Below, one piece after another: positions 6,138-40,372 of a stretch of 42,242 bases of DNA. The stretch's first letter is position 1, and each line of letters begins with the position of its first letter. The stretch is from Rivularia sp. MS3 (GTDB lineage: Bacteria; Cyanobacteriota; Cyanobacteriia; Cyanobacteriales; Nostocaceae): contig JAHCMI010000079.1 in assembly GCA_019192545.1 (NCBI GenBank), forward strand, positions 1 to 42,242, in the 5' to 3' direction. The position numbers and the translations under genes were made by a program. The notes below the pieces were generated by a model that worked only from the letters and a program-made list of their open reading frames with translations, was not told where the DNA came from and did not search any database.

Positions 6138-6206
6138 GTAGGTTGGGTGAAACGTAGTGTAACTCAACACCCGTATTGGGTTGCGCTAACGCTTCACCCA
6201 ACCTAC
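6138..6206. repeat. Small palindromic intergenic repeat
   Basis: A 13-bp inverted repeat GTAGGTTGGGTGA (6138-6150) and TCACCCAACCTAC (6194-6206) encloses imperfectly pairing inner arms. It sits just after the porin stop codon. It resembles, but is not identical to, the GTAGGGTGCGTT-type core at 10724-10804. Both look like short hairpin repeats common in cyanobacterial intergenic DNA. Confidence 0.55.
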
Positions 6207-6241
6207 GAAGCTAGGAAATCAAAATTTACAAGTAGAAAAAT

Positions 6242-6267
6242 GGCCCCTCTCCCCCTCCTCCCCCTTC
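6242..6267. repeat. C-rich heptad-type repeat tract
   Basis: Short CCCCTCTCC/CCCCTCC runs lie between the palindromic repeat and the converging COG0523 gene. Confidence 0.45.
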
Positions 6268-6305
6268 TTATTCAATAGGTAATTATAAAGCCGGGAAGGG
6301 AGTAG

Positions 6306-7271: not shown

Positions 7272-7379
7272 AACTATAGGAATTATATTTAATTCGTAGT
7301 AACTACCTATATGATGAGAGAATAGCAAAAAAGAGTCTATAGTAATCTTATCTGATTTACAAGAATTTGAAATGCCTGT

Positions 7380-7406
7380 AACCCGGTTTTTTGACAAAAT
7401 CGGGTT
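7380..7406 (-). terminator. Hairpin between PAS gene and COG0523 gene
   Basis: AACCCG (7380-7385) pairs with CGGGTT (7401-7406), with A/T pairs extending inward. On the minus strand it lies 56 bp after the PAS-protein stop codon. No clear T-tract follows, so it may be a weak terminator separating the two minus-strand genes. Confidence 0.35.
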
Positions 7407-7461
7407 TATTGATTATTACTTTGAGATTTAGAAATGGTATATTACAGTATTGAGATTATTT

Positions 7462-8805
7462 TTAAACATCTTCTGACGGATTTTCTTGAATGCTGAGAAG
7501 TAATTCCCATCTTTTGATAATTTGAGCAATTAACAGTTGTAAAGATGTAGGTAAACTATCAAGCTGTTGCTTAACGGTTTGTAATTCTTGCTTTGCACTC
7601 ATAAATATTTTTTCTTGTACGCGAGATTCTGCCATCGTTTGATGTAAATTAACAGTCAAAGCAACTTTACCTAGATTGATAATCGCTAATTGTAATTCCG
7701 GTTGAATATTAGCGGCGATTTTTTCGGGTTTTGTAAATTTAGTTAATTTTGCGATATCTTCGATATTTGCTACATTTAATGCCTCGAATAATGCTGGTAT
7801 TTCCCGTGCTGATTTTAGTATAGAATTAGTTTCTTGCAGTTCTTCGACGATTTTTTGAATCTGTTTTCTTAAATCATTACGTATTTGAAAAAGTTTATCT
7901 TCTGCCTTTTTTAGTTCGCTGACATCTTCAATTAGTCCTTCAAGAGCCAATGATTCATCATTATTAGCTAGATTATTATAAAATATTCCCTGACCTTTTT
8001 CCCATAGCCACTTTATTTCTCCACTTTGTGTTTGAATTCTATATAAAATTTCATAAGCTCTCTTTTGTTCTAAAGCTTTTTGGATACTCTCCCATACATA
8101 CTGTTCGTCATCTTTATAAACAATAGATGCATAAGATATTTTATTACTAATAAAATCATTAATTGTATAGCCAGTAATCCTTTCACATCCGTAACTTACA
8201 TATTTCATTGTATAATCGGGGTCATTAAGGCAGCGATAAGACATACAAGGGTTATGGGTAATATTAGTAATATCGCTAGCCATGTAAAATACTAAATTCT
8301 GTTCGTTTATAGCTATGACTTCTGCTGACAGGAGAAAATCTTTTATGTCCCCAGATTTTGTACGTAATTGAAATATCTGTTGTTTAATTATTTTAGATTC
8401 TTGTAATAAATTTTTGATTGTAATAGGGTCTTGATTATTAACCCAAATGTTAACATTAGTATAAAGTTTACCGATTAAATCTTTAGAAGCATACTCTAAA
8501 ATACGACAAAATGAATCATTTACATTAATGATTTCTTTTGTATTTTCGCTAACAACCATTAAAATACTTCCGGAAGAATGAATATTTAAAAATAGCTTGT
8601 CGTCTAGTATTTGTAATTTTGCCGTTCTTTTATCGCTTAATTTATCTCGCTCATCATTAGTTTGTTTGAGCATTTGAAAGCTATCTTCTAAATGAGTGCT
8701 TAACTCTTGAATGTATTCGTAATGAATATTATTTTCATTTTCACTAGTTTTGGTAATATTCTTATAGGTAGTATTAAGACGATGCAACAGATTTTTCCAG
8801 CACAT
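7462..8805 (-). CDS. Double PAS-domain protein with C-terminal helical region
   Basis: The 447-aa cytosolic protein has no kinase, GGDEF or phosphatase output. A helical N-terminus is followed by a PAS domain with PAC (about residues 70-180; INVNDSFCRILEYASKDLIGK). A second PAS-PAC follows (about 185-300; MKYVSYGCERITGYTINDFI ... GEIKWLWEKGQGIF ... LEGLIEDVSELKKAE). A coiled coil (about 300-335) leads to an all-helical tail ending near LPTSLQLLIAQIIKRWELLL. It probably senses a small ligand or redox state and signals by protein contact. The gene starts 29 bp after the caspase-GUN4 stop codon on the same strand, so the two look co-transcribed. The tail's function is not recognised. Confidence 0.75.
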   Translation of the reverse strand: MCWKNLLHRLNTTYKNITKTSENENNIHYEYIQELSTHLEDSFQMLKQTNDERDKLSDKRTAKLQILDDKLFLNIHSSGSILMVVSENTKEIINVNDSFCRILEYASKDLIGKLYTNVNIWVNNQDPITIKNLLQESKIIKQQIFQLRTKSGDIKDFLLSAEVIAINEQNLVFYMASDITNITHNPCMSYRCLNDPDYTMKYVSYGCERITGYTINDFISNKISYASIVYKDDEQYVWESIQKALEQKRAYEILYRIQTQSGEIKWLWEKGQGIFYNNLANNDESLALEGLIEDVSELKKAEDKLFQIRNDLRKQIQKIVEELQETNSILKSAREIPALFEALNVANIEDIAKLTKFTKPEKIAANIQPELQLAIINLGKVALTVNLHQTMAESRVQEKIFMSAKQELQTVKQQLDSLPTSLQLLIAQIIKRWELLLSIQENPSEDV

Positions 8806-8834
8806 AGTTAGTTAATTTGAATCAAAAAATAGAG

Positions 8835-10106
8835 TTATACTTCACACTGCGTAAATCTCTGCAATATGTATGAGAAAATTGGATCTCGAAAAAGTCCTCC
8901 GAAGCTTCCCGGAAGACGAACTAAAGATACTCCCAAACAAGGAAAATGTCCTATAGGTGCTTTAAGACTAAAAGTTAACTGAGAATGTATTAACCAACTG
9001 TTGTTAATTCTCCACCCGAGACGATAACCTACTTCGCAATCAGTCTCGTAGTCTATATTTGTAACGATTTGCTTCCAGACATCTTTCTGAGCGCTAAATC
9101 CAAAACGTCCCTTGCTAGCTTCAACCCATAAATTATCTATCGTAGATAAATCCAAACAAGAAATATGACGAATATCTTCTTTAACTAAAAATTCGCTTTC
9201 TTGTTTTCCCGCTGCATAACGCAGTACTCGGCGAGTTTCGATATCGGCTTGCTGCCAATTTTGGGCAATTAAATAATCCCTCAACCTGCTGTAGTCAACT
9301 TGCCGCTGGCTTTTTAATTCTATTCCATCTAAATGGATAGTTTGCACAACTGTTTTTTGCTCAACTGATTTGATATCGACTTTTGCTAAATTAATTTTCT
9401 TCGTTTCTGGAGATGAATAAAGTTGAGGTGCCATATTCGGAACATTATCAATATTAGAAGTAATATACTGATGTATTTCTGCCAAAGTTATCCAACCATC
9501 ATTGTCAGATGCTGCTACACCTTCTTTTATCCCTTTAACTAAAAAGTTAGTATAGGTTGAAAGTTCTTTATCTTCCTTGAAATGGTAATCGATAGAATCA
9601 GATGATATGAGTATAGCTCGTCCTTCATCACCTAATTCAGCTTCGATGTCTACTTTATTTTTGGTATAACTATCGCTTCTGAAAGTTTCGCTATAGCAAC
9701 AGTCAATTATGATTACTTTATTCCGAGATTTACTAGCATCCATTCTTTCTTTAATAAAGCTAGCCGGTATTGCCGTACTTTCAATCAATTCACCACCATA
9801 ATCATATTTTTTAGTATCCGTTGCCGCAAAAAAAAGATTACCTTTATTGTTTATTAAAGCGTGTCCTGAGAAATACATCAGCAATAAATCATCTGCATTT
9901 TTATTTGCAAACAATTCATATATATACGCTTGTATTTTTTGTTCGGAATCGTTAATTGAAACTGTGATATCTCTTTCATAAAATCTACCTACTTCAGAGT
10001 CTTGTAATATTGTTTGTACCTTATCAACATCTTTTTCAGCTTTTGATAGAGGTGAAAAGTACTGTTTATATTCACTGATGCCAATTAGCAAAGCTAGTTT
10101 TTTCAT
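8835..10106 (-). CDS. Caspase-like peptidase (C14) fused to a GUN4 domain
   Basis: This 423-aa protein is a cyanobacterial orthocaspase-type fusion. The N-terminal p20-like domain (residues 3 to about 225) starts MKKLALLIGISEYK and has the catalytic dyad: His82 in YFSGHALI and Cys137 in IIDCCYSE. The usual Gly after DxCxS is Glu140 here, which is unusual next to the active site. A linker (230-270) leads to a GUN4 domain (271-420; DYSRLRDYLIAQNWQQADIETRRVL and a final GYRLGWRINNSWL-type stretch), a fold that binds porphyrins in the chlorophyll-pathway protein GUN4. ATG 10106 was chosen because MKKLALLIG is the usual domain start; the frame is open to 10190. It probably cleaves after basic residues, perhaps gated by a tetrapyrrole; that gating is inference. 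Confidence 0.85.
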   Translation of the reverse strand: MKKLALLIGISEYKQYFSPLSKAEKDVDKVQTILQDSEVGRFYERDITVSINDSEQKIQAYIYELFANKNADDLLLMYFSGHALINNKGNLFFAATDTKKYDYGGELIESTAIPASFIKERMDASKSRNKVIIIDCCYSETFRSDSYTKNKVDIEAELGDEGRAILISSDSIDYHFKEDKELSTYTNFLVKGIKEGVAASDNDGWITLAEIHQYITSNIDNVPNMAPQLYSSPETKKINLAKVDIKSVEQKTVVQTIHLDGIELKSQRQVDYSRLRDYLIAQNWQQADIETRRVLRYAAGKQESEFLVKEDIRHISCLDLSTIDNLWVEASKGRFGFSAQKDVWKQIVTNIDYETDCEVGYRLGWRINNSWLIHSQLTFSLKAPIGHFPCLGVSLVRLPGSFGGLFRDPIFSYILQRFTQCEV

Positions 10107-10426
10107 AGATACACAATAATAATTAGTAGGTAGGCGTTGAAAATAGTAATTAGGACAAGGGAATAGGGAATAAGAATGGTTCTTCAGCACAAGGGGGTGC
10201 TATTTAAATAGTCGTTGTTAGGCAGTAGGTAAAAGCAGAGTAAAATTATCAAAATTTAACCATCTAAAATATAAACTCTTTATACAGCAAGTATTTCGGT
10301 AATTTTGGTAAACGATTTAGCATACTAATAACTGATGAGCCATAAGAATAAGGTATTGAAGTAAATTTATATTCTGTAACATAGCACCCATTTATTTGTA
10401 TCGTTACTTAGCTAAAAAAAATATTT
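10107..10426. other. Intergenic region, 320 bp, upstream of the caspase gene
   Basis: The AT-rich stretch lies between the ribbon-helix-helix gene and the caspase gene, both minus strand. It presumably carries the caspase promoter. No ORF, repeat or clear operator was identified. Confidence 0.5.
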
Positions 10427-13528: not shown

Positions 13529-14182
13529 ATGGGAATTACCAATTTGCTGAGTGCAGGTGGAATAGTAATGATACCCCTGCTATTTTTCTCGATATTAGTA
13601 GGGGCTTTAATTATCGAACGCATCCGGTTTTGGGTCAAAATAAGTAATCGTCAAAACCGCATAGTAGAAGAAGTACTCAAACTTTATCGTCGAGATAATG
13701 TTGTTAGTGCCTTGGAAAAACTCAAGCAAAATACCGATTTACCCATAGCTCGAATATTTTTAGCAGCTTTAGAGTTAGAAGAAGCAAACCCAGAAGAATT
13801 TCGTCTTGCATTAGAAAGTGAAGCACAAGCCGAAATACCTTTACTAAAACGCTTCCAAAACATCTTCGATACGGTGATTTCTCTTTCACCACTCTTAGGA
13901 CTTTTAGGAACCGTTTTAGGATTAATTGCTTCTTTTGCTTCACTCAATCTCGGTAACGTTGGCGGTACCCAAACAACCAACGTTACCGGCGGAATCAGCG
14001 AAGCATTAGTTTCCACAGCCGCTGGATTAATAGTTGCTATCTTTACATTATTATTCGCCAACACATTTCGCGGACTTTATCAGCGACAAATTGCATTAAT
14101 TCAAGAATATGGCGGACAATTAGAACTTCTTTATCGTCGTCATTATGAACGGGATAAGAAGTTAGGAGTAAGTAGTAAGTAG
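13529..14182 (+). CDS. exbB-like: ExbB/TolQ/MotA-family proton-channel protein
   Basis: The 217-aa inner-membrane protein has TM1 at about 8-28 (AGGIVMIPLLFFSILVGALI) and a cytoplasmic loop. TM2/TM3 carry the family signature LSPLLGLLGTVLGLIASF and GISEALVSTAAGLIVAIFTLLF. With ExbD/TolR it forms a proton-motive-force-driven motor that energises outer-membrane processes. ATG 13529 is chosen over GTG 13517 because GAGGAG lies before it at a good distance. It starts 86 bp after the devC-like gene and is followed by exbD. No TonB gene is seen. Confidence 0.9.
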   Translation: MGITNLLSAGGIVMIPLLFFSILVGALIIERIRFWVKISNRQNRIVEEVLKLYRRDNVVSALEKLKQNTDLPIARIFLAALELEEANPEEFRLALESEAQAEIPLLKRFQNIFDTVISLSPLLGLLGTVLGLIASFASLNLGNVGGTQTTNVTGGISEALVSTAAGLIVAIFTLLFANTFRGLYQRQIALIQEYGGQLELLYRRHYERDKKLGVSSK

Positions 14183-26411: not shown

Positions 26412-27700
26412 TTATGGGTCGGAATAGTTTCCGTTGAATTGAACTCCCTGATTTTCTATTGTTGTTTGGTTTTCTCCTGCTGTCACGGTGGGAGCAATAT
26501 TGTTGACATTCAAGGTAATTGTTTCTACTGTTGATGCTCCTTGAGAATCGGTGACGGTAAGGGTTGCGGTGTAGGTGCCGTTATCGGCGAAGGTGTGGGT
26601 AACGCTTTGTCCGTTTAACTCAGGAGTGTTGTCTCCGAAATTCCAGGTATAGATAATTTCTCCTTCATCGGTTGCATCTGCGCTAAATGTGGCTGCTATT
26701 CCTTCTGCTAGGTTGGGTTCTATATCAATTTTATCGATACTGGGAGCGCTGTTCTTAATCGTAATATTTACTGTTGCGGTGTTGGATGTGTTGTTGTCGT
26801 TGTCTTTGACGGTATAGGTAAATGTATCAGTAGCTTCTGCTGTTGATAACTCCGGCGAGAAACTTTCATCAAGCCCTACCAGTAATTGCCGCGTCATATT
26901 TGTTGTTAAAGTTACGGCTTCTGGGTATAGCTGCAAACCATCTTGTTCGGCTAATGCTACATAAAACTCCGAATCATTGCTAGGAGCCGGAATATCCCCC
27001 ATCCTAACAGCAGTAACAGCGGATATCCCATTCTTCCGTACAGTAACAATCTCCACCCTATCACTTAACCCACTCAGCACCCCATACTCATTAACATCCG
27101 CAACCAACCCACTTTCAGAACCAAACCTTACATAAGAAGCTGGTAAAATCACATCCTCCTGGTCAGAAAAATCACCAACCACCACCAATTCCGTACTCTC
27201 CCCAGCATCCAACCGTGGACTCCTGTTAACAATATCCAAATTAATCAAAGGAGCATTACTGACATCAACCTTGATTTCAACAGGAGCAGCAGTACTGTAA
27301 CCATCATCCGCAATCAAATTAAAACTAGCATCACCAAAATAACCATCCTCCGGAGTAAACCTTACAAACTTACCATCCGGCGTAAAACTAACATTTCCGT
27401 TAGAAGAATCAGCAAGACGGAAATAAATCGGGTCGCCTTCCGGGTCAGTAGCAATTGTATCTAACTCAATAAACGTCTCTAAATCATTGTGAGTAAGCAC
27501 AGTAGTCGGAGTAACTATCGGTGCAACATTCGCCGCAAAGTCATAATTACTACCTAATATTTGCATGTCGGCAGCATTTACCACACCATCGCGGTTGAAA
27601 TCGTAGCGAACATCGTAATTTCCCTTCGCGATCGCTGTTGCTAACTCATTACTATCAGCACCGTCAACCTTGTCGTCAAAGTTAACATCACCAGCGATTC
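26412..27700 (-). pseudogene. Giant exoprotein remnant, part 4: dockerin, cadherin-like and PKD domains
   Basis: This frame starts, reading leftward, with a dockerin-type pair of Ca2+ loops: GDVNFDDKVDGAD and DFNRDGVVNAADMQILG (about 27545-27692). A cadherin/VCBS-like repeat follows (ATDPEGDPIYFRL...FTPEDGYFGDASFNLIADDG), then further beta domains, then a PKD domain (YTWNFGDNTPE...HTFADNGTYTATLTVTDSQGAS). It stops abruptly at FNGNYSDP. It lies in a different frame from the upstream pieces (27688-31286); the shift falls at the heptad repeat 27701-27746. The 3' end is cut off at the glycoside-hydrolase pseudogene. Confidence 0.8.
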
Positions 27701-27746
27701 GGAGAGTGAGGGAGTGAGGAGATGAGGAGATGAGGGGATGAGGAGA
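27701..27746. repeat. Heptad repeat at a frameshift
   Basis: GAGTGAG/GATGAGG units sit exactly where the exoprotein frame changes between parts 3 and 4. A 7-bp unit changes the frame by +1 per copy. Confidence 0.75.
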
Positions 27747-28085
27747 TTAAATTCAACCCAGGATTATCTATTGCGAATAGTGCATAATTTTCATTACTTA
27801 CAACAGGGGTTAATCCGGCGATACTTGGCAAACCACCACCAGTAACTTCCGCACTTACAAGTACAATCCCCGTGGCAGTAGATTCAATTTCACCTTCTCG
27901 TAAACCAAAGGTATATTGTTCAATTCCCTGCGTTAAACTACCATTTACCGTAGAACCATTCCATTGAACAACACCGCCCAAATCCCCTTGTATATCGGTA
28001 ATTTGAGAGGTTTCATTATAGGCGTTAAGCGAAGCTCTACCGAAGGTAATCGCTTTCCCACCACTCCCCGGATTTCCGGTTATTA

Positions 28086-28161
28086 GAGTGAGGGAGGGAG
28101 AGAGGGAGGGAGTGAGGGAGGGGGAAGAGGAGGGAGGGAGGGAGGGAGTGAGGGAGGGAGA
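28086..28161. repeat. Heptad repeat inside coding frame
   Basis: GAGTGAGGGAGGGAG-type units, about 76 bp, are read on the minus strand as SPSLTPSLPP-type sequence between RYGY and LITGNPGSGG. Confidence 0.8.
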
Positions 28162-28784
28162 GTATCCGTAACGTTGTGCTTTTCCTGTGGAAAGGTTTCT
28201 TACAGAAACTAAGTTTCCATCTTGATAATCGTAAACAACCTTTGTTCCGTCGGGAGCAATTATTTCCTTTAAGAATCCTTGCTCGTCATTGACAAATTGC
28301 ACCGTTTCCCCAGTGGAAGATGTAATTCCGCTATCGCTATAAATCAAACTTATTCCATTCGCTGCAATTTGCTCCGTAATCCCCTTCTTACTATCAATTA
28401 AATATTGCGTTCCTTCTGCGTCAGTTAACGTAAATTCGGCACCGTCAAAATCCCCACTCGCCGGGTTGTAAGCGTAACCAGTATTTAGTTCGTAGAAGCG
28501 ATTTCCGGCTAAAGTTAAGTTCGCGATCGCCGAATTCAATTTATACTCAACCCCTTCATCAGCAACCCATTCGGGGGAATAATAAGTTAAACCGGAGATT
28601 TCCTTTCTTTGAGGAGCAAAAGTAAATCCGACACGCTCCCCAGTTGGAGTATTTAGATAAAGTCTCCTTCCCACACGGTAGGGTTCATAAACTCCTAATT
28701 CTTCCCTACCAGTAAGCGCAACATTCGTTTGGATATCGGTATCTGTACTAAATCTCCAGGTGTTGTCTAAGGAATTGTAGGTAC

Positions 28785-28840
28785 GAGTGAGGAAGAGGGA
28801 GAGAGGGAGGGAGGGAGAGAGTGAGGGAGGGAGGGGAGAT
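28785..28840. repeat. Heptad repeat inside coding frame
   Basis: GAGTGAGGAAGAGGGAG-type units are read on the minus strand as SPLPPSLSPSLPLSLFL between GDD and TRTYNSL. Confidence 0.8.
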
Positions 28841-29175
28841 GTAGAATCATCACCTCTTCCTTCTTCCTCCTTCCTTCTTCCTTCAAAGATATATTTTAAA
28901 TCGGTTTCGGTGCGGGAAAGTGATGTTTTTGCGGTACTATTAATTTCGACAACGGTATTTGTAGTTGATGTACGTCCGCTGATATCTGTTGCTGTCAATC
29001 GTAATTGGTAGAATCCGTTATTTAGCTTATTGGGGTCAATTTGTGCGAGAATTTCATCGTTAGCTGTATTCTCACCATTGGCGATCGCCCTATAATCATC
29101 TTCCCCAAAGCTTGCTATTTCCAACTTCCAACTATCTAAATTAACGTCAGATACCTCACCAACGATATCAGTAAT

Positions 29176-30837
29176 TTAACTTATCCTATCGGCATTAATC
29201 GCAGAATCTAACCCAACAACCGGAGCCTTGCTATCAAAGGAATTGCGTACCTTAATTACCGTAGAAGTTTCACCAACCCTACCGTCAGCGTCGGTAGCAA
29301 ATGCTTCAACAAAAACTTTTCCGGGAGTGGTAGGGTTAATATGAAATCTACCAAACTCATCAATCTCTACTTTTTCACCATTAACAAAAGCATCGATATT
29401 GGTAATTTCTGCAAAACTATCAGCAAAAGCGGTGACAATAACGCTTTGATTTGGCGTTACGGGGAATCCGGGAGTTAAATCAAGATTTACAGTTGGATTT
29501 TCTGTTGTCAGAGCAACTTTAATTAAAGCGTTTTCTGTAACTGTGGAAATTCCATCGCTAACGGAGAAGTTAATGCTGTAATCACCAACTTGCCCTGGAT
29601 TTGGTATCCATTTGAATTCACCAGTTTCTTTATTTAAAGTCGCACCTTCTGGCAAGATATCGGCAGAGTATGTTAACTGTGAATTTTCATCTTTGTCGGA
29701 AGCATTTAACGTAAAGTTGAGAGTTTCACCAAGAGCAACACCACGGTTAGATACTTTTAATTCGGGATTGCGGTTGCTATCGGTAATTAAGATATCAACA
29801 TCTCTTCTTCCAACTTCTCCAGCGGCATCTTTGACTTCAAAGGTTAGTTTATATTGCCCGCTTTGGTTGTAATCGGGTTTCCAAACAAATTCTCCTGTGC
29901 GGGTGTCGAATGTCGCACCTTGGGGGAGATTGGTAATTGGGGAAAAGACAACTCCTTCAATATCGTAATCAACGGCATTTAAATTAAATCGTAAAAATTC
30001 GTTTTCTGACGCTATTTGAGTTGGAAGGGGAATAATTACTGGTGCGCGGTTAGTATTTTCTACTTCTATGGAAAAAGTTTTTTCGGATTGTTTATTGCCA
30101 TCGGTGGCGATGATGGTGATATTTTCGTACAATCCTGCTTGAGAATAATCTGGTTTCCATGTAAGTAAACCGGTTTTTGCGTCGAGAGAAGCGTTTTGAG
30201 GAAGATTCTTCGCTAAATAGGTGATTGTGTCGTTGTCGGAATCTTCTGCTTGTAGTTGTAACGAGAAAGTTTCTGCTTCTTTGATTGTGAGAATCCCTTG
30301 CGGGGATAAGTTGGTGATTGGGTTTAGTTGAGGAGCATTATTGTAATTACGTACAACTATATTAAAAGTTTGCTCGTGGCTGAAGATTTCATCATTATTA
30401 CCATTACCACTATCCGTTACCTTAATCGTAACAGGATAGGTTTTATCTAAAATACTTTCATCCGCTGCCACTGCCCACTCAAACGAAGCTTTACCATACC
30501 CACCTTTTTGAGTAAGCGTAATACCCGCTGGTAAATCTTGTTTATTAAGGATTTCAAAGGTTAAATTATCTTGATTGTTATCTTCAACTAAAACATCAAA
30601 TTTGAGAGTTTCTCCAACAACTGCTACCTTGTCACCGATATATTCAATTTGAGGTGCATCGTTATTCCCTAAAACATTGATATTAAAATTTTTTTCCGTA
30701 TAAAGCGGAGTTTCATTATCTATACGATTAATTTCTTCTGCTATCAACGTAAATGTGTAGCTGCCGCTAATATCTTTATCTGTGGGGGAGATATTTAGTG
30801 TTGCTGTGCCGTCAGCAAATAAATAATTATTGTCAAA
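29176..30837 (-). pseudogene. Giant exoprotein remnant, part 2: tandem Ig (He_PIG) domains
   Basis: About 550 residues hold at least four putative-Ig repeats with the He_PIG signature LPxGATFDxxTGEFxWxPxxxQxGxY. Examples are LPQNASLDAKTGLLTWKPDY, LPQGATFDTRTGEFVWKPDY and LPEGATLNKETGEFKWIPNP. The frame is open from FDNNYLFADGTATLNIS right after the TAA of the small gene at 30838 and is closed by a TAA at 29176-29178. Beyond that stop the same frame continues as part 3. It is a fragment of a secreted or surface adhesin-like protein, not a complete gene; no start or signal peptide survives. Confidence 0.8.
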
Positions 30838-31116
30838 TTATTTCTGCTTCTTTCTAGCTTCCATTTGTGCTATTTTATCCCTTAATAACTTCTCGGTTTT
30901 TTCGGTGGCTGCTAACTTATCTAAAAGTCTTTGTTTTCTCTGCAATATCCCTTCGAGATACTTGTTAAAACAACTTCCATCGATTACCGATTGAATTCTT
31001 CTGTCTTTTTCTTCCTGAGACATAGGTGTACCAAACATTGCAGTCATACCTAATTCATCTAATCTTTCCCATCTTTCTAAATCTTCTTTTGTTGGCTGGT
31101 ATTTTTCGTTACTCAT
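30838..31116 (-). CDS. Small coiled-coil hypothetical protein embedded in pseudogene debris
   Basis: The 92-aa soluble protein starts MSNEKYQPTKEDLERWERLD. It has GMTAMFGTPMSQEEKDRRIQ and a charged C-terminal coiled coil (YLEGILQRKQRLLDKLAATE onward to KKQK). An AAGGA lies 7 bp before ATG 31116, a good ribosome site. The frame is also open upstream into a duplicated exoprotein fragment, and its TAA directly abuts the Ig-domain remnant, both in the same frame. No family is recognised. It may be an independent small gene dropped into the wreck. Confidence 0.5.
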   Translation of the reverse strand: MSNEKYQPTKEDLERWERLDELGMTAMFGTPMSQEEKDRRIQSVIDGSCFNKYLEGILQRKQRLLDKLAATEKTEKLLRDKIAQMEARKKQK

Positions 31117-31286
31117 TGTGCATTCCTTCCACTGTACAACACCCAAATTCCCTTGTATATCAGTAATTCGAGGAACTTCATTGTAAGCGATCGCCTTACC
31201 ACCACTCCCCGGATTTCCGGTTATTAGAGTGAGGTAAGTTGTAGTGGAAGTACGTCCGCTAATATCTGTTGCTGTCAATCGTAATT
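31117..31286 (-). pseudogene. Duplicated, internally deleted exoprotein fragment
   Basis: This fragment reads TATDISGRTSTTT followed at once by YLTLITGNPGSGGKAIAYNE and ITDIQGNLGVVQW. The same segments occur about 900 bp apart in part 3 (about 28957-29007 and 27958-28100). The join lies at GAGTGAGG, the edge of the heptad tract, so a deletion or template switch at the repeat created it. Confidence 0.7.
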
Positions 31287-31581: not shown

Positions 31582-34500
31582 ATGAGCGTTTTAGATTTTC
31601 CTCGATTACATTTCCAAGGTTTTGCCAGAGTTCACGCTCCTACGGGATATAAAAATGGTTTAATCGACCTTAGCGACAATACCTGTTATATGAATGGTGT
31701 CCCGTACAAGGAAAATCATTCGGCTTCTGAATATCACGAATATCTTTATAATAAAGGTCAAAAATTTAATGCGGAAGGGAAGTTAGATGAAAACGGCCCT
31801 TTTAGTATGGCTCAAGGATGGAATTTTGGCGGCAACGGTCATTTTTCAATTGATGCGAAAATTATTAGTACTCAAACAGAGTTTGGGAAAGTTGATGAAA
31901 GTGACCCGGTTATTGGTAGAAGTGTAGATTTTTGGGGACACTATAACGAGTACGTCAAAACAAGTTTTAATAGAGCCAGGATATTTGAAAATGACCCGGC
32001 TTCTAATTGGACTAATACGATTATGTTGGGACAGTTAGCTTTTGGTAGGTTGGGTGAAAGTAATCAAGTGCCTTATATGGTAACTGCTCCTATTGAAGGT
32101 TATCAGTTAGCTCGCTGGCAAGATTTTGATTATATTCGCGATTTACCAGACCATATTTTAAATCATGAATTTGGTAAAGCTGCTGTTTACCAGTTTGTTG
32201 TTTCCAAGGGTGAGGAAGATTTTTTATGGAGTGATGAGGTAAATATTTCGCCGACGGTTTCTTTGTTAAAGGAAGCGATGCAGCGAGAAGATGTTTTGGG
32301 TTTGGTGGTGCAGTTTAGCATCAGCAATATGTCTTCTCCACAGCAACCAGATTCTCCTAGTTTTTGGGAATTACATGGAACTATCGGTTTATGGTGTAAG
32401 GATGAATTAAAAACTTATCCGGGTGGAAGGTTGTTAACTCCTCAACCAGAATTGAAAGAAATGGGTAATTTGACGTTGAAGTTAAATTCCCAGGGGATAA
32501 GTTTAAATATGATTACAGCTGTTCCTTGTGTTGGAAGGTCAAACAAAGCAGAAAACGGAATTCACCACATTTTTTCAAAGTTGGATTTGGGTGATTTAGA
32601 AATTCGTACTGTTGATAGCAATCGTTTGGTTGGAGTAATTCCTCAGAAGTTGTACAAGAAGGAAGCTCATGATTTAACCAGTGGTTTGGTTGATATTCCC
32701 TACCTTGAAAATGAAAGTTGGCAAGATTTACGAGAAGATGTTGAAAATCAAGGTTTGTGCATTATCGGAACGGTTGAGGGGATACGAAAAGTTTTAGTTA
32801 AGGAGAAGGAAATTAATCTTCAAGTTGACGATGCTTGTTTATTTCTTGAATTCCCTAACTATCAGAAAGGGGAAGATAATGCTTACGAAGTTGAAGTGCG
32901 CTCTTTTGTTAGAGGTGTTCCGACATCGGTACAGTCAATTTACGTAAATCAATTTTATAATCCTAGAGCTTTTCCTCAATTACGCTACCAATTTGAAAGG
33001 GATAGTAATAATAAAGATGAAATTTTTCATTATCCCCAAAATTCAGAATTACAGATTGTTGAATTAAAACCTGGATTACAAGATGAGAAAGGAGAATTTT
33101 TATCAAGCTGTGAAATATCTACTAATAATCAAGGAAGAGGTTGGTTTACTTTAAGAGGTGCTAAACCTGGTACTGCGAAAATTTTAATGTCTCACAATTT
33201 ACCATCATTTGTGAGCGATCGCCATCATGCAGACGAAGCGGAAATTGCTTACGACAACGACAATAAACTCGGATTTTGGAATACTTCCGGCTTCTGCGCT
33301 GTTAGAGTCATGGGTAATGATTGGCACTTAGATGATATTCCGCAACAAGATGTAGATTTCAACTTAATTTACGAAAAAGTTTTAGCTTTCTACGAAGCCA
33401 GTTTTTCGTTTATGAAAGCCGAAGTTTTTAGCTTGGCAGATAAATGTAAAGTTGCTACCTACGCTCGTTTAATGTGGCAGATGTCAGACCCCAAAAATAA
33501 AAATAAAACTTACTATATGCCCCCCACAAGAGATATGTCCGAATCACAATCAAAGCTTTTACTCAAATTCCTGCAAAATCAACAGCAAATTGGCTATATT
33601 CCACAATCGGAACAGTTACCGAAGCCCGAAATTCAATCTCAAAATAAAGATAAATATAAAATTAAAACCAAAGAAGAATTAATTAAAGCATTAAAACAAG
33701 CAGCAGAATTAGAAGTTGCCGTAATGCTGCAATATATTTATGCCGGATATTCGGTTCCCAATTACGTTACCGGAGAAGAATACGTGCGTCGGGGATTGTG
33801 GACAGAAGAACAATTACATTTAGCTTGTGGTGACAATAAAGAAGTTGATAATTATGGAATGCGGGGGGTATTAATAGAAATTGCCCGCGAGGAAATGATT
33901 CATTTTCTTTTGGTTAACAATATATTGATGGCAATTGGCGAACCATTTTACGCAGCAGTTCCCGATTTTAAACAACTTAACGCCCTTTTCCCCATAGATG
34001 TCGATTTTGCTTTAGAACCTTTAAATGCTTTATCCCTACAGTATTTTATGCGTTTGGAAATGCCAGATTTTCTTAATGAAGACCTTGTTGACGAAAATAT
34101 TCCGACAGCGGAACAGTTACATACATATGGTTCGTTGAGTGAATTATACGGTCAAATCCGCGACGGATTACAAAACATTCCCGATTTATTCAAAGTTGAT
34201 AAAAACAAAGTTGGTGGAGAACACCGCTTATTTATGCGGGATAATCTCAATCAAAAACACCCAGATTATCAAATGCAGGTTTATGACCTCAAAAGCGCAT
34301 TATTTGCAGTTGACGTAATTGTAGAGCATGGAGAAGGCAGCCAACAAAGCAGCGAAACATTTGCTAAATCCCATTACCAAAAATTTCGTCAGCTAGCAGA
34401 CGCTCTTTCCCAAGAACAAATTTACGTTAACAATAATAATAAAAATCAATCCCGCAACGGAATAGTTAAAACCTGGAATCCTTCCTACCCATCATTAAGA

Positions 34501-34944
34501 AATCCCAGCGTTTCTTATCAAGATTGTAATTCCAACGTTGTCACCATTCCTCAAACTAGAACGGTGATGGAAATATTTAATCAAAGCTATTTCTTAATGA
34601 TGCAGTTGATGGTTCAACATTTTAATTCAAATCCCCAAGGAAGTTTAAGACGCTCCAAATTAATGAACGCTAGCATCGACATTATGACAGGAATGATGCG
34701 ACCTTTGGGAGAACTATTAATGACTTTACCATCCGGGAAACGCGGTAAAACAGCAGGGCCATCCTTTGAAATACCAACACCGGAATATATTCCTGACCCC
34801 GAAATTGCAGCTTCAACAATTTCAAATCATTTTAAGGATTTAGCCAAACGCTCTTATGAATGCAAAGTGATTCCCGAAGCTGTTTGTGAAATGTTTGATT
34901 TTTATTGTAATTTCTTCGAGGAATTAAGGAATGATATTTTTTAA
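31582..34944 (+). CDS. RebD/StaD/VioB-type bis-indole (chromopyrrolic acid) synthase homologue
   Basis: The 1120-aa protein matches the RebD/StaD/VioB family along its length. It begins MSVLDFPRLHFQGFARVHAP. It has NHFS-like NGHFSIDAK, VDFWGHYNEYVKTSFNRAR and GRLLTPQPELKEMGNLTLK. The strongly conserved KVFSLADKCK-like segment EVFSLADKCKVATYARLMWQ is followed by NKTYYMPPTRDMS. A C-terminal ferritin-like domain (about 690-930) has ELEVAVMLQYIYAGYSVPNY and IAREEMIHFLLVNN, and then LMNASIDIMTGMMRPLGELL. Family enzymes couple two indole-pyruvate imine units from tryptophan. RebD/StaD give chromopyrrolic acid; VioB feeds violacein. The RebC-like gene next door favours the indolocarbazole branch. 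No export signal. Confidence 0.88.
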   Translation: MSVLDFPRLHFQGFARVHAPTGYKNGLIDLSDNTCYMNGVPYKENHSASEYHEYLYNKGQKFNAEGKLDENGPFSMAQGWNFGGNGHFSIDAKIISTQTEFGKVDESDPVIGRSVDFWGHYNEYVKTSFNRARIFENDPASNWTNTIMLGQLAFGRLGESNQVPYMVTAPIEGYQLARWQDFDYIRDLPDHILNHEFGKAAVYQFVVSKGEEDFLWSDEVNISPTVSLLKEAMQREDVLGLVVQFSISNMSSPQQPDSPSFWELHGTIGLWCKDELKTYPGGRLLTPQPELKEMGNLTLKLNSQGISLNMITAVPCVGRSNKAENGIHHIFSKLDLGDLEIRTVDSNRLVGVIPQKLYKKEAHDLTSGLVDIPYLENESWQDLREDVENQGLCIIGTVEGIRKVLVKEKEINLQVDDACLFLEFPNYQKGEDNAYEVEVRSFVRGVPTSVQSIYVNQFYNPRAFPQLRYQFERDSNNKDEIFHYPQNSELQIVELKPGLQDEKGEFLSSCEISTNNQGRGWFTLRGAKPGTAKILMSHNLPSFVSDRHHADEAEIAYDNDNKLGFWNTSGFCAVRVMGNDWHLDDIPQQDVDFNLIYEKVLAFYEASFSFMKAEVFSLADKCKVATYARLMWQMSDPKNKNKTYYMPPTRDMSESQSKLLLKFLQNQQQIGYIPQSEQLPKPEIQSQNKDKYKIKTKEELIKALKQAAELEVAVMLQYIYAGYSVPNYVTGEEYVRRGLWTEEQLHLACGDNKEVDNYGMRGVLIEIAREEMIHFLLVNNILMAIGEPFYAAVPDFKQLNALFPIDVDFALEPLNALSLQYFMRLEMPDFLNEDLVDENIPTAEQLHTYGSLSELYGQIRDGLQNIPDLFKVDKNKVGGEHRLFMRDNLNQKHPDYQMQVYDLKSALFAVDVIVEHGEGSQQSSETFAKSHYQKFRQLADALSQEQIYVNNNNKNQSRNGIVKTWNPSYPSLRNPSVSYQDCNSNVVTIPQTRTVMEIFNQSYFLMMQLMVQHFNSNPQGSLRRSKLMNASIDIMTGMMRPLGELLMTLPSGKRGKTAGPSFEIPTPEYIPDPEIAASTISNHFKDLAKRSYECKVIPEAVCEMFDFYCNFFEELRNDIF

Positions 34945-35030
34945 ACGCTAAGGAACGCTAAGGAAAGCGCAAAGGTACGCAGAGTTTTTTTATAAATATA
35001 AGGTTGAGTCGAGGATTAATAATTTAATTT

Positions 35031-35069
35031 TCCCTCACTCTCTCACTCTCTCACTCCCTCACTCCCTCC
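35031..35069. repeat. Heptad repeat in the RebC-like leader
   Basis: CCCTCACTCTCTCACT units end 11 bp before ATG 35081, replacing the expected Shine-Dalgarno region between the RebD-like and RebC-like genes. Confidence 0.8.
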
Positions 35070-35080
35070 AAACAAAAATC

Positions 35081-36679
35081 ATGAAAACAAACACACAAGT
35101 CTTAATAATCGGTGGCGGTCCCGTCGGAATGTCAATGGCAGCCGAACTACGCTACCAAGGCATTGATTGTATTCTTATCGAAAAAACCGATGGAGTTGTT
35201 CGCGACCCGAAAGTAAGTACAGTTGGATATCGTTCGATGGAATTCTGCCGTCGTTGGGGTATTTCCGATTCGATTAGAAATGCTGGCTGGAATAAAAACC
35301 ATACTTTAGATGTGGCTTGGGTAACTTCTGTCGGAGAACATGAAATCTTCCGGGTTAATTTACCTTCCTACGCCGAACGTCCTCAACCTAATTATGCTCC
35401 GGAAACCGAACAGGTATGTCCCCAACATTGGTTTGCTCCGGAATTTCTCAAATATATCGGAATATATCCCCAAGGAATTGTAAAACTTAATTCTGAATTA
35501 CAAGAATTTTACCAATCCGATAGCGGAATAGTTGCGAGCATTAAAAATCTAGAAACTGGAGAAACTGAAACTATTGAAGCTAAATATATGGTGGCAGCCG
35601 ATGGCGCTCGCGCTCAAATTCGCAAACAATGCGGTATCGACGCAATTCAATATCACGATACACAAACTTTTCAAAGCGTTGTTTTCCAAGCTCCCGAATT
35701 AGCATCACAATTGGGTGACAAGAATGCTATGGTTTTCTTTTTAGTAAATCCTACAATCCAAGAACCATTACGAGCGGTTGATGGCAAAGGACAATATCGT
35801 TTAATTCTCAAACCTAAAGAAAATGGCGAAATTCACGACGCTTATGATGCAATCAAAGCAGCTATCTCTATAGATACCCCCGTAGAAATAATTTCTAATT
35901 TACCTTGGCGTTTAACTCACCGAGTTGCCAAACATTTTCGTAAAGGAAACATTTTCTTTATTGGCGATTGCGCTCATACTCTTTCCCCTTCCGGCGGCTT
36001 TGGTATGAATACCGGCATCGGTGATGCTGTTGATTTAGGTTGGAAACTCGCCGCTACTATTAAAGGTTGGGGAGGAGAAAATTTACTTGATACCTACGAA
36101 ATTGAACGTCGTCCGATTGCGGTACAGAATCTCGAAGCAGCAAACGCTAATTTACAACGTACTCAAAAACGCTCCATTCCTCCCGAAATTGCTAGTAATT
36201 CTCCCAAGGGTGAAGCGATTCGCAAACAAATGGCTGAAGGTATGGAAAAAAGTGGAGTTAAAAAAGAATTTGATGCTCCCGGCGTTCACCTCGGTTTACG
36301 TTACTCTTCACCAATTGTCATTCCCGACGGAATACCATCAAATAATTCCCAACAATGGACGCAAAGTAGCTATCCCGGTTGCCGCGCACCTCACGCTTGG
36401 CTAAACGAAGGATTATCAACTTTGGATTTATTCGGTCATGGATTTACGTTGATGTGTTTTAACTCAAATTCAAATTCTAGAATTGAAGAATTAACGAAAA
36501 TCTGTCACCAAAAGCAAATTCCTTTGACAATCCATCATATTGATAACCAGGCGATCGCCAAACTTTACGAACGCACTTTCGTCTTAGTAAGACCGGATGG
36601 ACACGTCGCTTGGAGAGGTAATGAAATTCCTCAAGATGTGGAAATTATGATTGATAAAGTTAGAGGAGCTTTAGACTAG
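35081..36679 (+). CDS. RebC/StaC-type FAD-dependent monooxygenase
   Basis: The 532-aa class A flavoprotein monooxygenase has GGGPVGM (residues 10-16, FAD Rossmann), the DG motif VAADGARAQIR (about 171-181) and the GD motif FIGDCAHTLSPSGGFGMNTG (about 292-311). Segments specific to RebC/StaC are present: AGWNKNHTLDVAWVTSVGEH, VCPQHWFAPEF, EPLRAVDGKGQYRL, FDLFGHGFTL-like LDLFGHGFTLMCF and LVRPDGHVAWRGNEIPQD. In rebeccamycin/staurosporine assembly this enzyme acts with a P450 (RebP/StaP) on chromopyrrolic acid and sets the oxidation level of the aglycone. It follows the RebD-like gene by 136 bp on the same strand. Confidence 0.87.
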   Translation: MKTNTQVLIIGGGPVGMSMAAELRYQGIDCILIEKTDGVVRDPKVSTVGYRSMEFCRRWGISDSIRNAGWNKNHTLDVAWVTSVGEHEIFRVNLPSYAERPQPNYAPETEQVCPQHWFAPEFLKYIGIYPQGIVKLNSELQEFYQSDSGIVASIKNLETGETETIEAKYMVAADGARAQIRKQCGIDAIQYHDTQTFQSVVFQAPELASQLGDKNAMVFFLVNPTIQEPLRAVDGKGQYRLILKPKENGEIHDAYDAIKAAISIDTPVEIISNLPWRLTHRVAKHFRKGNIFFIGDCAHTLSPSGGFGMNTGIGDAVDLGWKLAATIKGWGGENLLDTYEIERRPIAVQNLEAANANLQRTQKRSIPPEIASNSPKGEAIRKQMAEGMEKSGVKKEFDAPGVHLGLRYSSPIVIPDGIPSNNSQQWTQSSYPGCRAPHAWLNEGLSTLDLFGHGFTLMCFNSNSNSRIEELTKICHQKQIPLTIHHIDNQAIAKLYERTFVLVRPDGHVAWRGNEIPQDVEIMIDKVRGALD

Positions 36680-36720: not shown

Positions 36721-37257
36721 TTAAGCAGCAACTGGAGTATTGACTTTCTTTCCAAAACCTTTTCCTGAAGCTTTTTTGGGTTTAGTTTTTGGTTTAACTA
36801 ACCGTGGATTTTTATCCATAATTTCTCTAAAAGTGCAACCATCTTGGATTTCGGGTTCAGAAAAAGTCTTGAGACATACGGTTGCACCGCAATTCTTTTG
36901 AGGATTTTCAAAATCGTAGATTAATACGCAAGGACCGGGAATTACAACTCTACTCGAATAGGTATTTTTGTTCCGACACTTGACGGCAATCGGTGGAGCA
37001 TAAGTCCCATCATCCATCTTTTTCCCTATCAATTGACGATTGATGTGAATAATATTTTCAGCGGGAGCTTTTACTCTTTTCCAAGTAGGTTTAGGACCGC
37101 GAGAGGCTGTTGATATCTGGGGATAACCATTTACTGTTGGTATTGCCCAAACCCCTCCAATTTTATAGGCTCCGTGGACTCTGCCTTGGGCAATTAATTT
37201 TCTAATCCGACGAGCAGAAACATCTAGTAATTCTGCTGCTTTTGTAGTTCCTATCAT
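36721..37257 (-). CDS. HTH (excisionase/MerR-like) DNA-binding protein
   Basis: The 178-aa protein has an N-terminal helix-turn-helix of the excisionase/MerR type: TTKAAELLDVSARRIRKLIA then GRVHGAYKIGGVWAIP. A central region with four Cys (about 90-140; CRNKNTY, GPCVLIYDF, KNCGATVC) and a Lys-rich tail (KPKTKPKKASGKGFGKK) follow. ATG 37257 is taken; TTG 37269 would add four residues. It is convergent with the RebC-like gene (41 bp) and divergent from the GST gene, so it could regulate either. The central domain is not recognised. Confidence 0.6.
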   Translation of the reverse strand: MIGTTKAAELLDVSARRIRKLIAQGRVHGAYKIGGVWAIPTVNGYPQISTASRGPKPTWKRVKAPAENIIHINRQLIGKKMDDGTYAPPIAVKCRNKNTYSSRVVIPGPCVLIYDFENPQKNCGATVCLKTFSEPEIQDGCTFREIMDKNPRLVKPKTKPKKASGKGFGKKVNTPVAA

Positions 37258-37463
37258 CTTTATGACCAACTCACTCTATAAGTACATACTACTATTCCGA
37301 TGATGGAATATATCAACCTCGTTAATTTTTATTTACACAAATAAAATTATATTTTGCCTTAAAAAGGTATATTTGGCTTTTATAGTCTAAAAATATACTT
37401 TAATGTAGAAATTACTTGACTTAAATTGCTTATTGTCTTATTTAATCTAGGAAACAATCAAAA

Positions 37464-38135
37464 ATGAAACTCTACCACGCACCAGCTTCGTCTTATTCCC
37501 AACGTGTATTAATAGCTCTTTATGAAAAAGAGTTGGATTTCACGCCTATTGAAGTAAACTTATTTGATGCAGAATCGAGGAATCAATATTTACAGATAAA
37601 TCGTTTTGGTAAAATTCCGACTTTAATAACCGATGATGGGGAAGTTCTTTTAGAGGCAAGTATCCAGATTGAATATTTGGATAGCTATAACAAGAAAATT
37701 CTGTTAATTCCTCAAGATAGTAAAGCCAATTTAGAAATGCGAATGCTCGAACGGATTATTGACGTTTACGTTAACGGGGGCAGGGAAGCATTATTTAAGG
37801 ATAGTCAGCGATCGCCTTCTCTAAGAGGTGATAAAGAAGTTGTCAAAGCAAAGCGATTGTTAGAATCAGCTTGTAATTTACTTGATGAGAAATTAGCAAA
37901 TCGTACCTGGTTGATAGGGGATGCGTTTACATTGGCTGACTGTAGTGCGGCTCCGACTCTTTCTTATCTAAGGATTGTTTACGATTACCAGCATTTACAG
38001 AATTTGACAGCTTATTTTCAAAGGTTGTCAGAAAAACCTTCTGTGAGAAAAGTTTTTGCATCTGGAAACGAGCAGATGAAGCAGATGTTATCTAATTTAA
38101 AATATCCCGTTGAATTTGAAGATGGGTTCGCGTAA
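37464..38135 (+). CDS. Glutathione S-transferase family protein
   Basis: In this 223-aa protein, residues 1-78 form a thioredoxin-fold GST_N: MKLYHAPASSYSQRVLIALY with candidate catalytic Ser/Tyr, GKIPTL with the cis-Pro, and LLEASIQIEYLD. A helical GST_C domain follows, with LIGDAFTLADCSAAPTLSYL (about 152-171). It conjugates or reduces electrophiles with glutathione in the cytosol. The gene is divergent from the HTH gene and 785 bp past the RebC-like gene. A role in handling reactive indole intermediates is possible but not shown. Confidence 0.88.
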   Translation: MKLYHAPASSYSQRVLIALYEKELDFTPIEVNLFDAESRNQYLQINRFGKIPTLITDDGEVLLEASIQIEYLDSYNKKILLIPQDSKANLEMRMLERIIDVYVNGGREALFKDSQRSPSLRGDKEVVKAKRLLESACNLLDEKLANRTWLIGDAFTLADCSAAPTLSYLRIVYDYQHLQNLTAYFQRLSEKPSVRKVFASGNEQMKQMLSNLKYPVEFEDGFA

Positions 38136-39190: not shown

Positions 39191-40372
39191 TTACCTCAAA
39201 AACCCCGCCAATTCTTCCAATTTCCGCCAAGGTTCTCCACTATTCAAAGCATCTTTAGCCATGACTACAGCATCAGCAAAAGCCTGGGAATAATCACCAC
39301 TATCCGCAACAGCTTCATCCTTCGGATTCGACACTTTGCTTATGCCGGCGGCAGTCGCTACAACGGAGGGAACCTCCGCAACGCGCTGCCTTGGGAACCC
39401 TTCCACCGCAAGTGTCTCACCCACATAAAGAGCTAAAGCAGCATTCAAAGCCACAACATCTTGCTGCTGCTGTGTACCTTTACCTTGCAAAACAGCTTTA
39501 AGTATGGTTGCATTTTCTTGAACTTCTCCACCTTTTATGCTGGTAATCGGTGCTGGAGTAATACCCAATTGTTCGGGATTTAATTCTAATATTTGTATTT
39601 TCCCGTTTGATAATACTGCTAAATCGGTTTTGTCTCCTAAGCCAGCTTCGTCTAATTTTTCCCTGCCGTGAAGAGTAATAGCCCGACGAGTTCCGAGTTG
39701 ATTGAGAACTTTAGCAAAAGTTTCTATTAAAACCGGACTATTAACTCCGATAACTTGCCCTGTCGGTTTGAGAGGATTGAGTAAGGGACCAAGTAAATTA
39801 AATACAGTACGGACTTTAAGTGTTTTTCGTAAAGGTGCGATCGCCTTTAATGCAGGATGCCAATCTGGTGCAAACAAAAAGGTGATTCCTACCGATTCTA
39901 AAGCAGCTTGGGTTTTGTGAGTATCGGCTTTGAGATTAACACCTAAAGCTTCTAACACGTCGGCAGAACCAGTTTTACCAGAAGAAGAACGATTACCGTG
40001 TTTTGCTACTTTTACGCCACAAGCAGCCGTGACAAAAGCGACTGCTGTAGAAATATTAAAAGTAGAAGCACCATCTCCACCAGTGCCGCAGGTATCAATA
40101 AAAGGTAAATTTCCGACAATGTTTTCGCGATTCGGTTTAACAGACTGAGAATGTAAAACCTCCACCATTCCCAACAATTCCTCAGCCGATACTCCCTTGG
40201 CTTGAATAGCCGTGATAATAGCACCAGACAACACATCGGGAATACTTTCCGTCAGCCAACCTTGCATTAAATCCGATGCTTGAGAAACTTCCAAAGATTC
40301 ACCAGAAAGTAATTGTTGCAAGATTGCAGACCAGTTTTTAGGTAAAATTTGTTGTGATTTGGTTTGAGTCAT
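39191..40372 (-). CDS. trpD: Anthranilate phosphoribosyltransferase (with in-frame insert)
   Basis: The 393-aa enzyme transfers phosphoribose from PRPP to anthranilate, the second step of tryptophan synthesis. Key motifs are [14 protein letters not shown] (PRPP loop), [21 protein letters not shown] and [15 protein letters not shown], followed by [14 protein letters not shown] and a C-terminal [19 protein letters not shown]. Relatives are usually about 340-360 aa. The excess is an insert of roughly 35 residues (about 319-355, [20 protein letters not shown] onward) between ALYVGETLA and DYSQAFA, made of dispersed-repeat DNA. It lies away from the active-site motifs, so the enzyme is probably still active. 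It may supply tryptophan for the RebD-like route, but it is a housekeeping gene. Confidence 0.93.
39305..39415 (-). repeat. Dispersed palindromic element inside trpD
   Basis: 39358-39383 is identical over 26 nt to the complement of 22646-22671, and 39308-39333 resembles 39043-39068. It contains CGGAGGGAACCTCCG, a 6-bp-stem hairpin. The element is open in the trpD frame and adds about 35 codons. Confidence 0.7.

Follow-up and report, generated by a model that had tools for sequence, protein, structure and literature searches.

A RebD/StaD- and RebC/StaC-type gene pair of Rivularia sp. MS3 as part of a probable, physically dispersed indolocarbazole pathway

Can two adjacent genes, standing among neighbours that do not look like those of a classical cluster, belong to a pathway for indolocarbazoles, the classic kinase and topoisomerase inhibitors that are mostly known from actinobacteria? 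The question is raised by positions 31582-36679 of a contig from the 9.19-Mb genome of the cyanobacterium Rivularia sp. MS3, which we analysed over its entire 42,242 bases (contig C151, hereafter the window), and for which a sequence-only reading had proposed the core of a probable indolocarbazole pathway. Our answer, drawn from comparative sequence analysis, is that the pair very probably does form part of a functional, physically dispersed pathway of this kind. What we can say plainly is which genes these are, to which families they belong, that they are present together in one genome, that relatives conserve them and that they are under purifying selection.

What, then, are the two genes? 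They are, as had been described, an adjacent same-strand pair, with exact open reading frames (ORFs) at 31582-34944 (+) and 35081-36679 (+), both open from an ATG start and 136 bp apart; a fusion of the two, suspected from a merged protein cluster, was not found on checking. The first, which we call D, is a full-length RebD/StaD/VioB-type protein of 1120 amino acids with a ferritin-like domain at residues 704-939 (Pfam Ferritin-like, 129.3 bits), and its sole NCBIfam match is VioB, TIGR04492, at 911.6 bits (E 5.4e-274); because this score lies under the equivalog cut-off of 1250, we call D a relative of VioB and not VioB itself. It is 43-45% identical to the D of three actinobacterial clusters and 67% to one cyanobacterial D, in line with the kinship first proposed for it. 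The second, C, is an FAD monooxygenase of 532 amino acids with FAD_binding_3 and Rng_hyd_C domains above the Pfam cut-offs, a match to NF004780/PRK06126 at 550 bits (cut-off 445) and, among solved structures, matches to RebC at 561.6 bits (2r0c) and 556.9 bits (4eip), the next scoring 160.4. It is thus of the RebC/StaC type, as had been said; that type is the flavoprotein partner of the P450 and not itself a P450. On these scores, the similarity of D and C to bisindole families is far beyond chance. The four short strings once offered as family signatures are indeed present (in D, EVFSLADKC at residue 614 and IAREEMIH at residue 767; in C, CPQHW at residue 113 and RPDGHVAWRG at residue 504), but they are weaker markers than they seem: six-frame counts for EVFSLADKC, REEMIH, CPQHW and RPDGHVAWRG were 7, 27, 5 and 17 in 36 cyanobacterial loci (of which some are incomplete or lack C), 0, 29, 11 and 28 in 40 actinobacterial loci, and zero for each in 7 Oxalobacteraceae loci.

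Could C simply be a generic phenol-type hydroxylase, the placement that the sequence-only reading had named as fatal to its own proposal? We reject this on the structure matches, on a plasmid search and on a tree with outgroups. In the plasmid collection, the best 18 matches of C are the identical 18 records that carry a full-length D (16 from Streptomyces clavuligerus, one from Nocardiopsis and one from Pseudonocardia), at 44.8-46.7% identity, and identity drops to 40.0% at the record after them. In a careful tree with five outgroups, every C from a bisindole locus falls in a single clade (100/100), within which the 18 cyanobacterial rows group together (98/96) as sister to the 26 actinobacterial rows, RebC among them (100/99). 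The expected position of C in a RebC/StaC clade therefore holds in that there is one bisindole clade, but not more narrowly, as cyanobacterial C lies outside the RebC/StaC-like part; and because it is sister to actinobacterial C and not nested in it, RebC or StaC activity is not readable from the tree, in which rows with StaC-like residues represent StaC. The outgroups were five farther relatives (matches H39, H40, H43, H45 and H52, chosen over nearer ones such as H41, H42 and H44): the four that are annotated show no D gene in their flanks, and around the two closest there is no relative of the O, D or P families, described below, at E 1e-8. Seven of the 50 C rows, near-duplicate or partial, were omitted (L060, L081, L083, L100, L120, L126 and L129). 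Arg230, a contact to the substrate carboxylate, is found in all 50 locus C proteins, that of the window included, whereas all five outgroups lack it.

Where are the oxidase and the P450 that such a pair would need? Both lie elsewhere in the genome, which supports the idea of a pathway core. The StaO-type oxidase, O, on contig C110, is an amine oxidase that shares 73% identity with O from the intact Tolypothrix brevis cluster; among solved structures it matches L-amino acid oxidases best, and its assignment is a family match to in-cluster O with which a quick unrooted tree is consistent, matches to the genome's other amine oxidases being too short to enter that tree as an outgroup. A second oxidase, 74% identical to the same Tolypothrix protein, is encoded on contig C1. 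The StaP-type P450, P, on contig C140, is 65% identical to the Tolypothrix brevis cluster P, carries the heme motif FGSGIHYCLG and has StaP (2z3t) as its best solved match at 372.7 bits, against 283.2 for the next; in a quick unrooted tree it groups with the cyanobacterial P proteins from clusters, next to the StaP-like P450s of actinobacteria. The order on C140 is P-P2-P2, the two P450s adjoining P being 57% and 52% identical to cluster P2. Contig C122 encodes an MFS-FHA protein, 49% identical to the Tolypothrix brevis exporter and 50% to that of Brasilonema, behind which stand a c9 gene (53%) and a pair of c12 genes (63% and 62%), families that also trail the exporter in intact clusters. A c22-type P450 was sought too, and the best among the loci examined is only about 33% identical. 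As separate observations, the second oxidase adjoins a P450 and a methyltransferase (6170-10145 of stretch L140), perhaps a separate tryptophan-derived pathway, and that P450 was considered as the missing P and dropped in favour of the StaP-like one on C140; further afield, a StaO-type amine oxidase 69.7% identical to our O adjoins a phage-type integrase on a 16-kb plasmid of Scytonema sp. HK-05 (AP018198.1; 588-2111 of L222), on which D, P and C are not annotated.

Are these scattered genes maintained? In comparison with Calothrix parasitica NIES-267, D has an omega of 0.167, C of 0.110, the GST gene described below of 0.103, O of 0.053 and P of 0.077; O, D, P and C are under purifying selection, and the pathway core is maintained. 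Five relatives in the clade (G386-G389 and G393) all keep O, at 85-96% identity, and P, at 75-96%. Across 386 cyanobacterial genomes, nine match D at E 1e-3 or better, full-length only in the Rivularia genome and one other (G300), and O at E 1e-80 or better is found in just this same pair; as Rivularia supplied the query, the informative co-occurrence is one shared match in 385, and, with at most two D and three O candidates per genome scored among the matches listed, absences in these scans are not proofs. The NIES-267 chromosome shows how far such a gene set can be spread. The GST, HTH, C and D genes occupy 938-945 kb; RidA is next, at 957 kb, then come FHA and MFS matches (958.5-960.4 kb) and P-P2-P2 (966.9-971.2 kb), and further along are O (1039.3 kb), DAHP synthase (1042.7 kb) and OprB with TrpD (1049.6-1052.5 kb). 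On that chromosome, the right end of contig C110 corresponds to about 1044.9 kb and that of the window to about 1049.6 kb, and O may therefore lie some 20 kb from D in Rivularia, across a contig gap.

Several observations weigh against our answer. The four core genes do not sit in one cluster but on three contigs, D and C standing together and O and P on two others; a single-cluster arrangement is the usual feature of such genes, and is not required for the chemistry. No GLO or RidA gene was found in the stretches of the Rivularia genome that we examined, the whole genome not having been searched for them. The assignments of D and O were made by likeness to staurosporine/rebeccamycin-like plasmid and genome clusters, and the characterised enzymes in our comparison are RebC and StaP only, via the PDB. 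In one of the five relatives, the metagenome-assembled genome G388, O and P are both split in two, and an internal stop interrupts one of the O fragments. Might the whole set, then, be the remnant of a broken cluster, the pathway idle and its genes persisting through other uses? Besides the pieces in G388 and the dispersal of the core in both Rivularia and its relatives, this idea would account for the TnpB-like IS605 gene among those separating D from P in NIES-267 and for the fast divergence of the P2 P450s, which are 64-66% identical to their NIES-267 counterparts with omega of 0.19-0.24. However, O, D, P, C and GST are all intact in Rivularia, with the purifying selection just described, and all five relatives keep matches to O and P, so that we think an idle remnant improbable.

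Also on the unfavourable side, violacein-type D proteins fall inside the cyanobacterial D clade of a quick unrooted tree, and for this reason D alone cannot tell indolocarbazole from violacein use; we had tried the D tree as a separator of the two, and it failed, both cyanobacterial types grouping together. (The D, P and O trees are quick searches supported by the Shimodaira-Hasegawa-like approximate likelihood ratio test only, lack an outside root and, for D, were flagged for long branches meeting; the D tree omitted L063, L083, L088, L094, L100, L103 and L110 as near-duplicate, split or partial and L130 as short.) Does D serve the formation of violacein or prodeoxyviolacein? VioB is, after all, its only NCBIfam match, and in two cyanobacterial relatives, whose D belongs to the same cyanobacterial group, VioC and VioD exceed their cut-offs and a gene of the VioE family adjoins D or lies close to it. 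Against this, searches with cyanobacterial VioC, VioD and VioE at E 1e-8 returned no hit for the window or for four other stretches of the genome (L139, L140, L141 and L210), the whole genome not having been searched; C follows D here, whereas the violacein-type loci L071, L078, L131 and L133-L138 have no C as fetched; and a StaP-type P is present in the genome. We consequently rate this use of D as very improbable and reject the identification of D as VioB, given its score and the presence of C and P, the D tree by itself not excluding it. The two violacein-type operons, at 8133-20854 of L078 (Nostoc flagelliforme FACHB-838) and 9887-16637 of L071 (Anabaena azotica FACHB-119), are of interest in their own right: VioC and VioD exceed the NCBIfam equivalog cut-offs in both, VioE does so in L071 while L078 has a member of the same VioE protein cluster, and their D group with cyanobacterial indolocarbazole D and not with the VioB-type D of Oxalobacteraceae. 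No report of native cyanobacterial violacein genes appears among the matches listed in our literature search. A third locus, in Calothrix sp. PCC 7103 (9995-16435 of L084), has D, O and then a VioE-cluster gene, with no VioC or VioD in the stretch; its product is possibly prodeoxyviolacein or a related bisindole.

Do cyanobacteria more widely carry such genes, and does the neighbourhood of our pair make sense beside theirs? The D scan of 84,980 named species genomes yielded 133 relatives, of which we kept 80: 36 cyanobacterial (from 32 genomes, judging by title), 37 actinobacterial and 7 from Oxalobacteraceae, so cyanobacterial bis-indole loci are less scarce than had been stated. In stretches of at most 10 kb per side, many ending early at contig ends, O accompanies D in 24 of the 36 cyanobacterial loci (some partial), C in 20, a StaP-type P at least 60% identical to that of Tolypothrix brevis in 20 and GST in 23. 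The fuller clusters run O-D-C-GST-P-GLO-P2, followed by a c7 gene, RidA, an MFS exporter (with an FHA domain in Tolypothrix brevis) and sometimes a Ser/Thr kinase. Since GST has its place in this order, the GST-family protein of the window (37464-38135, +, 223 amino acids), 64% identical to the in-cluster GST of Tolypothrix brevis, belongs to the pathway set. The next main ORFs beyond it are TrpD, an anthranilate phosphoribosyltransferase over its family cut-off (39191-40372, -), and OprB. A second TrpD over the cut-off lies on contig C152, making one of the two an extra copy, and TrpD occurs in 5 of the 36 other cyanobacterial D loci; that of the window is probably a pathway member dedicated to tryptophan supply. 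The surroundings had been described as unlike a classical cluster, but GST and probably TrpD are pathway genes after all, recognisable as such only by comparison with intact cyanobacterial clusters. Pathway membership is uncertain for the small HTH_17/excisionase-like protein between C and GST (36721-37269, -; 24.8 bits, cut-off 27), whose gene recurs in three compared loci, Calothrix parasitica NIES-267 (L069), Richelia (L059) and Plectonema (L061), all with the same arrangement D-C-HTH-GST and no O or P nearby. The window has 31 ORFs of at least 120 amino acids, and among the 30 scanned in at least one library (13684-14064, -, was left out) we found no bisindole, sugar or halogenation genes besides D, C, GST and TrpD.

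Other cyanobacterial loci add observations of their own. Sets of trp genes stand immediately upstream of O in L078, L086 and L090: by protein cluster, trpE/C/A/B/D precede O-D at 1-8081 of L078 and 273-8332 of L090, both with DAHP synthase, and at 1781-8331 of L086, where DAHP synthase is not in the stretch; dedicated tryptophan supply is the probable role. C is not universal, for among 12 genomes tested, representing 12 of the 16 C-less loci and including several drafts, four have C elsewhere and eight lack it at E 1e-60, a pattern that fits the report, in the accessible text of PMC10851217, that StaP alone already yields several indolocarbazoles, namely K252c, 7-hydroxy-K252c and arcyriaflavin A. 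Scytonema sp. NIES-4073, whose genes are clustered, is one of the strains in which C was not found. Clusters of D, GST, P and GLO in Tolypothrix (L064), Scytonema (L066 and L080), Cyanomargarita (L068) and Iningainema (L089) come from genomes without C at that threshold, with an extra P450 (c22 or P2) after GLO. In L111 (18855-22224), and also in L072, L075 and L079, the MFS exporter adjoins a Ser/Thr protein kinase, and the L111/L053 exporter has an FHA domain; in clusters expected to make kinase-inhibitor-like alkaloids, a link to target sensing or self-protection is possible.

What would the Rivularia pathway make? The StaO-type oxidase (on C110, with its paralogue on C1) would convert L-tryptophan to the indole-3-pyruvate imine, two of which D would join into chromopyrrolic acid; the StaP-type P450 would then connect the indole C2 positions, and C would capture the unstable dicarboxylated indolocarbazole and direct its decarboxylation and oxidation. 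GST, the two P2 P450s beside P and the MFS-FHA exporter are probable tailoring and export parts, while TrpD and the DAHP synthase near O probably raise tryptophan supply. That these genes act jointly, that each reaction runs as drawn and that the product is as named is what we infer from the sequences. The last of the unfavourable points arises here, in the ten positions at which 2r0c and 4eip, which we take to be the StaC-like RebC-10x mutant, differ within their aligned part. They read EKTKSQVARI in the window, EQTRGQFART in RebC and DAGKSAVSNV in 4eip (numbered, by our own inference, as chain index minus 20), which makes the window RebC-like at five of ten (36, 38, 117, 231 and 239), 4eip-like at three (46, 48 and 216) and of neither type at 37 and 241. 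The set is therefore mixed, with K46, S48 and V216 as in RebC-10x and Q117, A231 and R239 as in RebC; moreover, E36, Q117 and R239 occur in all five outgroups, so that they are ancestral and weak evidence of RebC activity. According to PMC10851217, RebC funnels the pathway to arcyriaflavin A, and K252c is the outcome with StaC or RebC-10x. For C we consider a C7-oxidised, arcyriaflavin A-type outcome likelier than a K252c-type aglycone; the product is probably an unchlorinated arcyriaflavin-type aglycone, and an arcyriaflavin-type compound appears moderately likely if the pathway runs.

Might GST, P2 and, where other strains have it, GLO instead rework the pyrrole ring, so that the pathway ends not in a pyrrolo[3,4-c]-indolocarbazole but in an indolo[2,3-a]carbazole resembling tjipanazole, or in some different rearranged bisindole? 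Among cyanobacteria, the known case of an indolocarbazole pathway is tjipanazole. A RebC-type C usually accompanies retention of the pyrrole ring. GST, GLO and P2 do recur in cyanobacterial D loci, the GST and GLO protein clusters, like those of RidA and MFS, have no member from an actinobacterial locus, and most tjipanazoles, cyanobacterial compounds, lack a pyrrolo ring according to the accessible part of PMC10300848. Yet tjipanazoles are described as halogenated, and our search of the genome for a tryptophan halogenase, the one halogenase family sought, returned a single partial match (22.3 bits against a cut-off of 21, over positions 157-219 of 458) that overlaps FAD_binding_3 and is not convincing. 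We hold a rearranged product of this kind to be unlikely, and prefer the unchlorinated arcyriaflavin-type one.

Should this pathway prove to run, what looked like two orphan genes would belong to a full set of four enzymes, candidate producers would be numerous among the Nostocales, and cyanobacterial C would offer a direct test of how the choice between arcyriaflavin and K252c evolved, while the dispersed arrangement shows how tools that require clustering can miss a working pathway. More tentatively, and with doubts that we would not wish to hide, we can imagine a cyanobacterial indolocarbazole branch predating the RebC/StaC split, with companions of its own (GST, VOC/glyoxalase, extra P450s, RidA, an FHA-domain exporter and sometimes a Ser/Thr kinase) that would remodel and export a kinase-active product and perhaps also sense it, the cluster dismantled in the lineage of the window while all core parts are still selected, such that cluster-based mining would miss a working pathway. 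Outside the bisindole finding, the window encodes a fusion of an EACC1-associated-type caspase domain with a GUN4-like domain (8835-10190, -), and consecutive ORFs at 26412-31278 (-), two with Ig/PKD/cadherin-like repeats, resemble a single large fragmented surface-protein gene.

How does all this compare with known systems? What is new is the completed, dispersed pathway with its cyanobacteria-specific companions, not a new type of reaction, and none of the matches listed in our open-licence literature search describes an indolocarbazole pathway dispersed in a cyanobacterial genome. Violacein biosynthesis uses the same oxidase and dimeriser chemistry in VioA and VioB, and shares with our system the match of D to TIGR04492; unlike it, Rivularia has a D that scores under the equivalog cut-off for VioB and a window in which VioC-E find no match, and it has C and P instead. 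With the actinobacterial StaO/D/P/C and RebO/D/P/C clusters it shares all four core enzyme families, at 43-45% (D), 45-47% (C) and 41-45% (O) identity to three plasmid-borne clusters, P being 43% identical to that of Pseudonocardia, 39% to that of S. clavuligerus and 31% to the sole P450 of the Nocardiopsis stretch; it differs in having no glycosyltransferase, NDP-sugar or halogenase gene among the scanned window ORFs, a C of mixed residues in the sister clade, and its cyanobacteria-specific companions. The tjp cluster of the cyanobacterium Symphyonema bifilamentata 97.28 ('Fischerella ambigua 108b') is presented, in the available text of PMC10300848, as five enzymes, namely a tryptophan oxidase, a chromopyrrolic-acid-synthase-like protein, a P450, an FAD monooxygenase and a tryptophan halogenase. 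Four of these types match ours by that description, which is our sole basis for comparison; unlike tjp, Rivularia has no convincing tryptophan halogenase, a dispersed core and GST, P2 and MFS-FHA companions. As far as the accessible portions of these sources go, cblaster had found the tjp cluster in no other NCBI genome by 2021 (PMC8065813), tjipanazole D is listed as a metabolite (PMC4558948), and PRISM predicts an indolocarbazole cluster in four Chlorogloeopsis genomes (PMC11392904). In Chlorogloeopsis fritschii PCC 6912 (L090) we find, by protein cluster, DAHP synthase and trpE/C/A/B/D followed by O-D-C-GST-P; assuming that this is the locus of the PRISM call, the Chlorogloeopsis cluster is probably the intact version of the Rivularia system, its genes standing together where those of Rivularia are dispersed.

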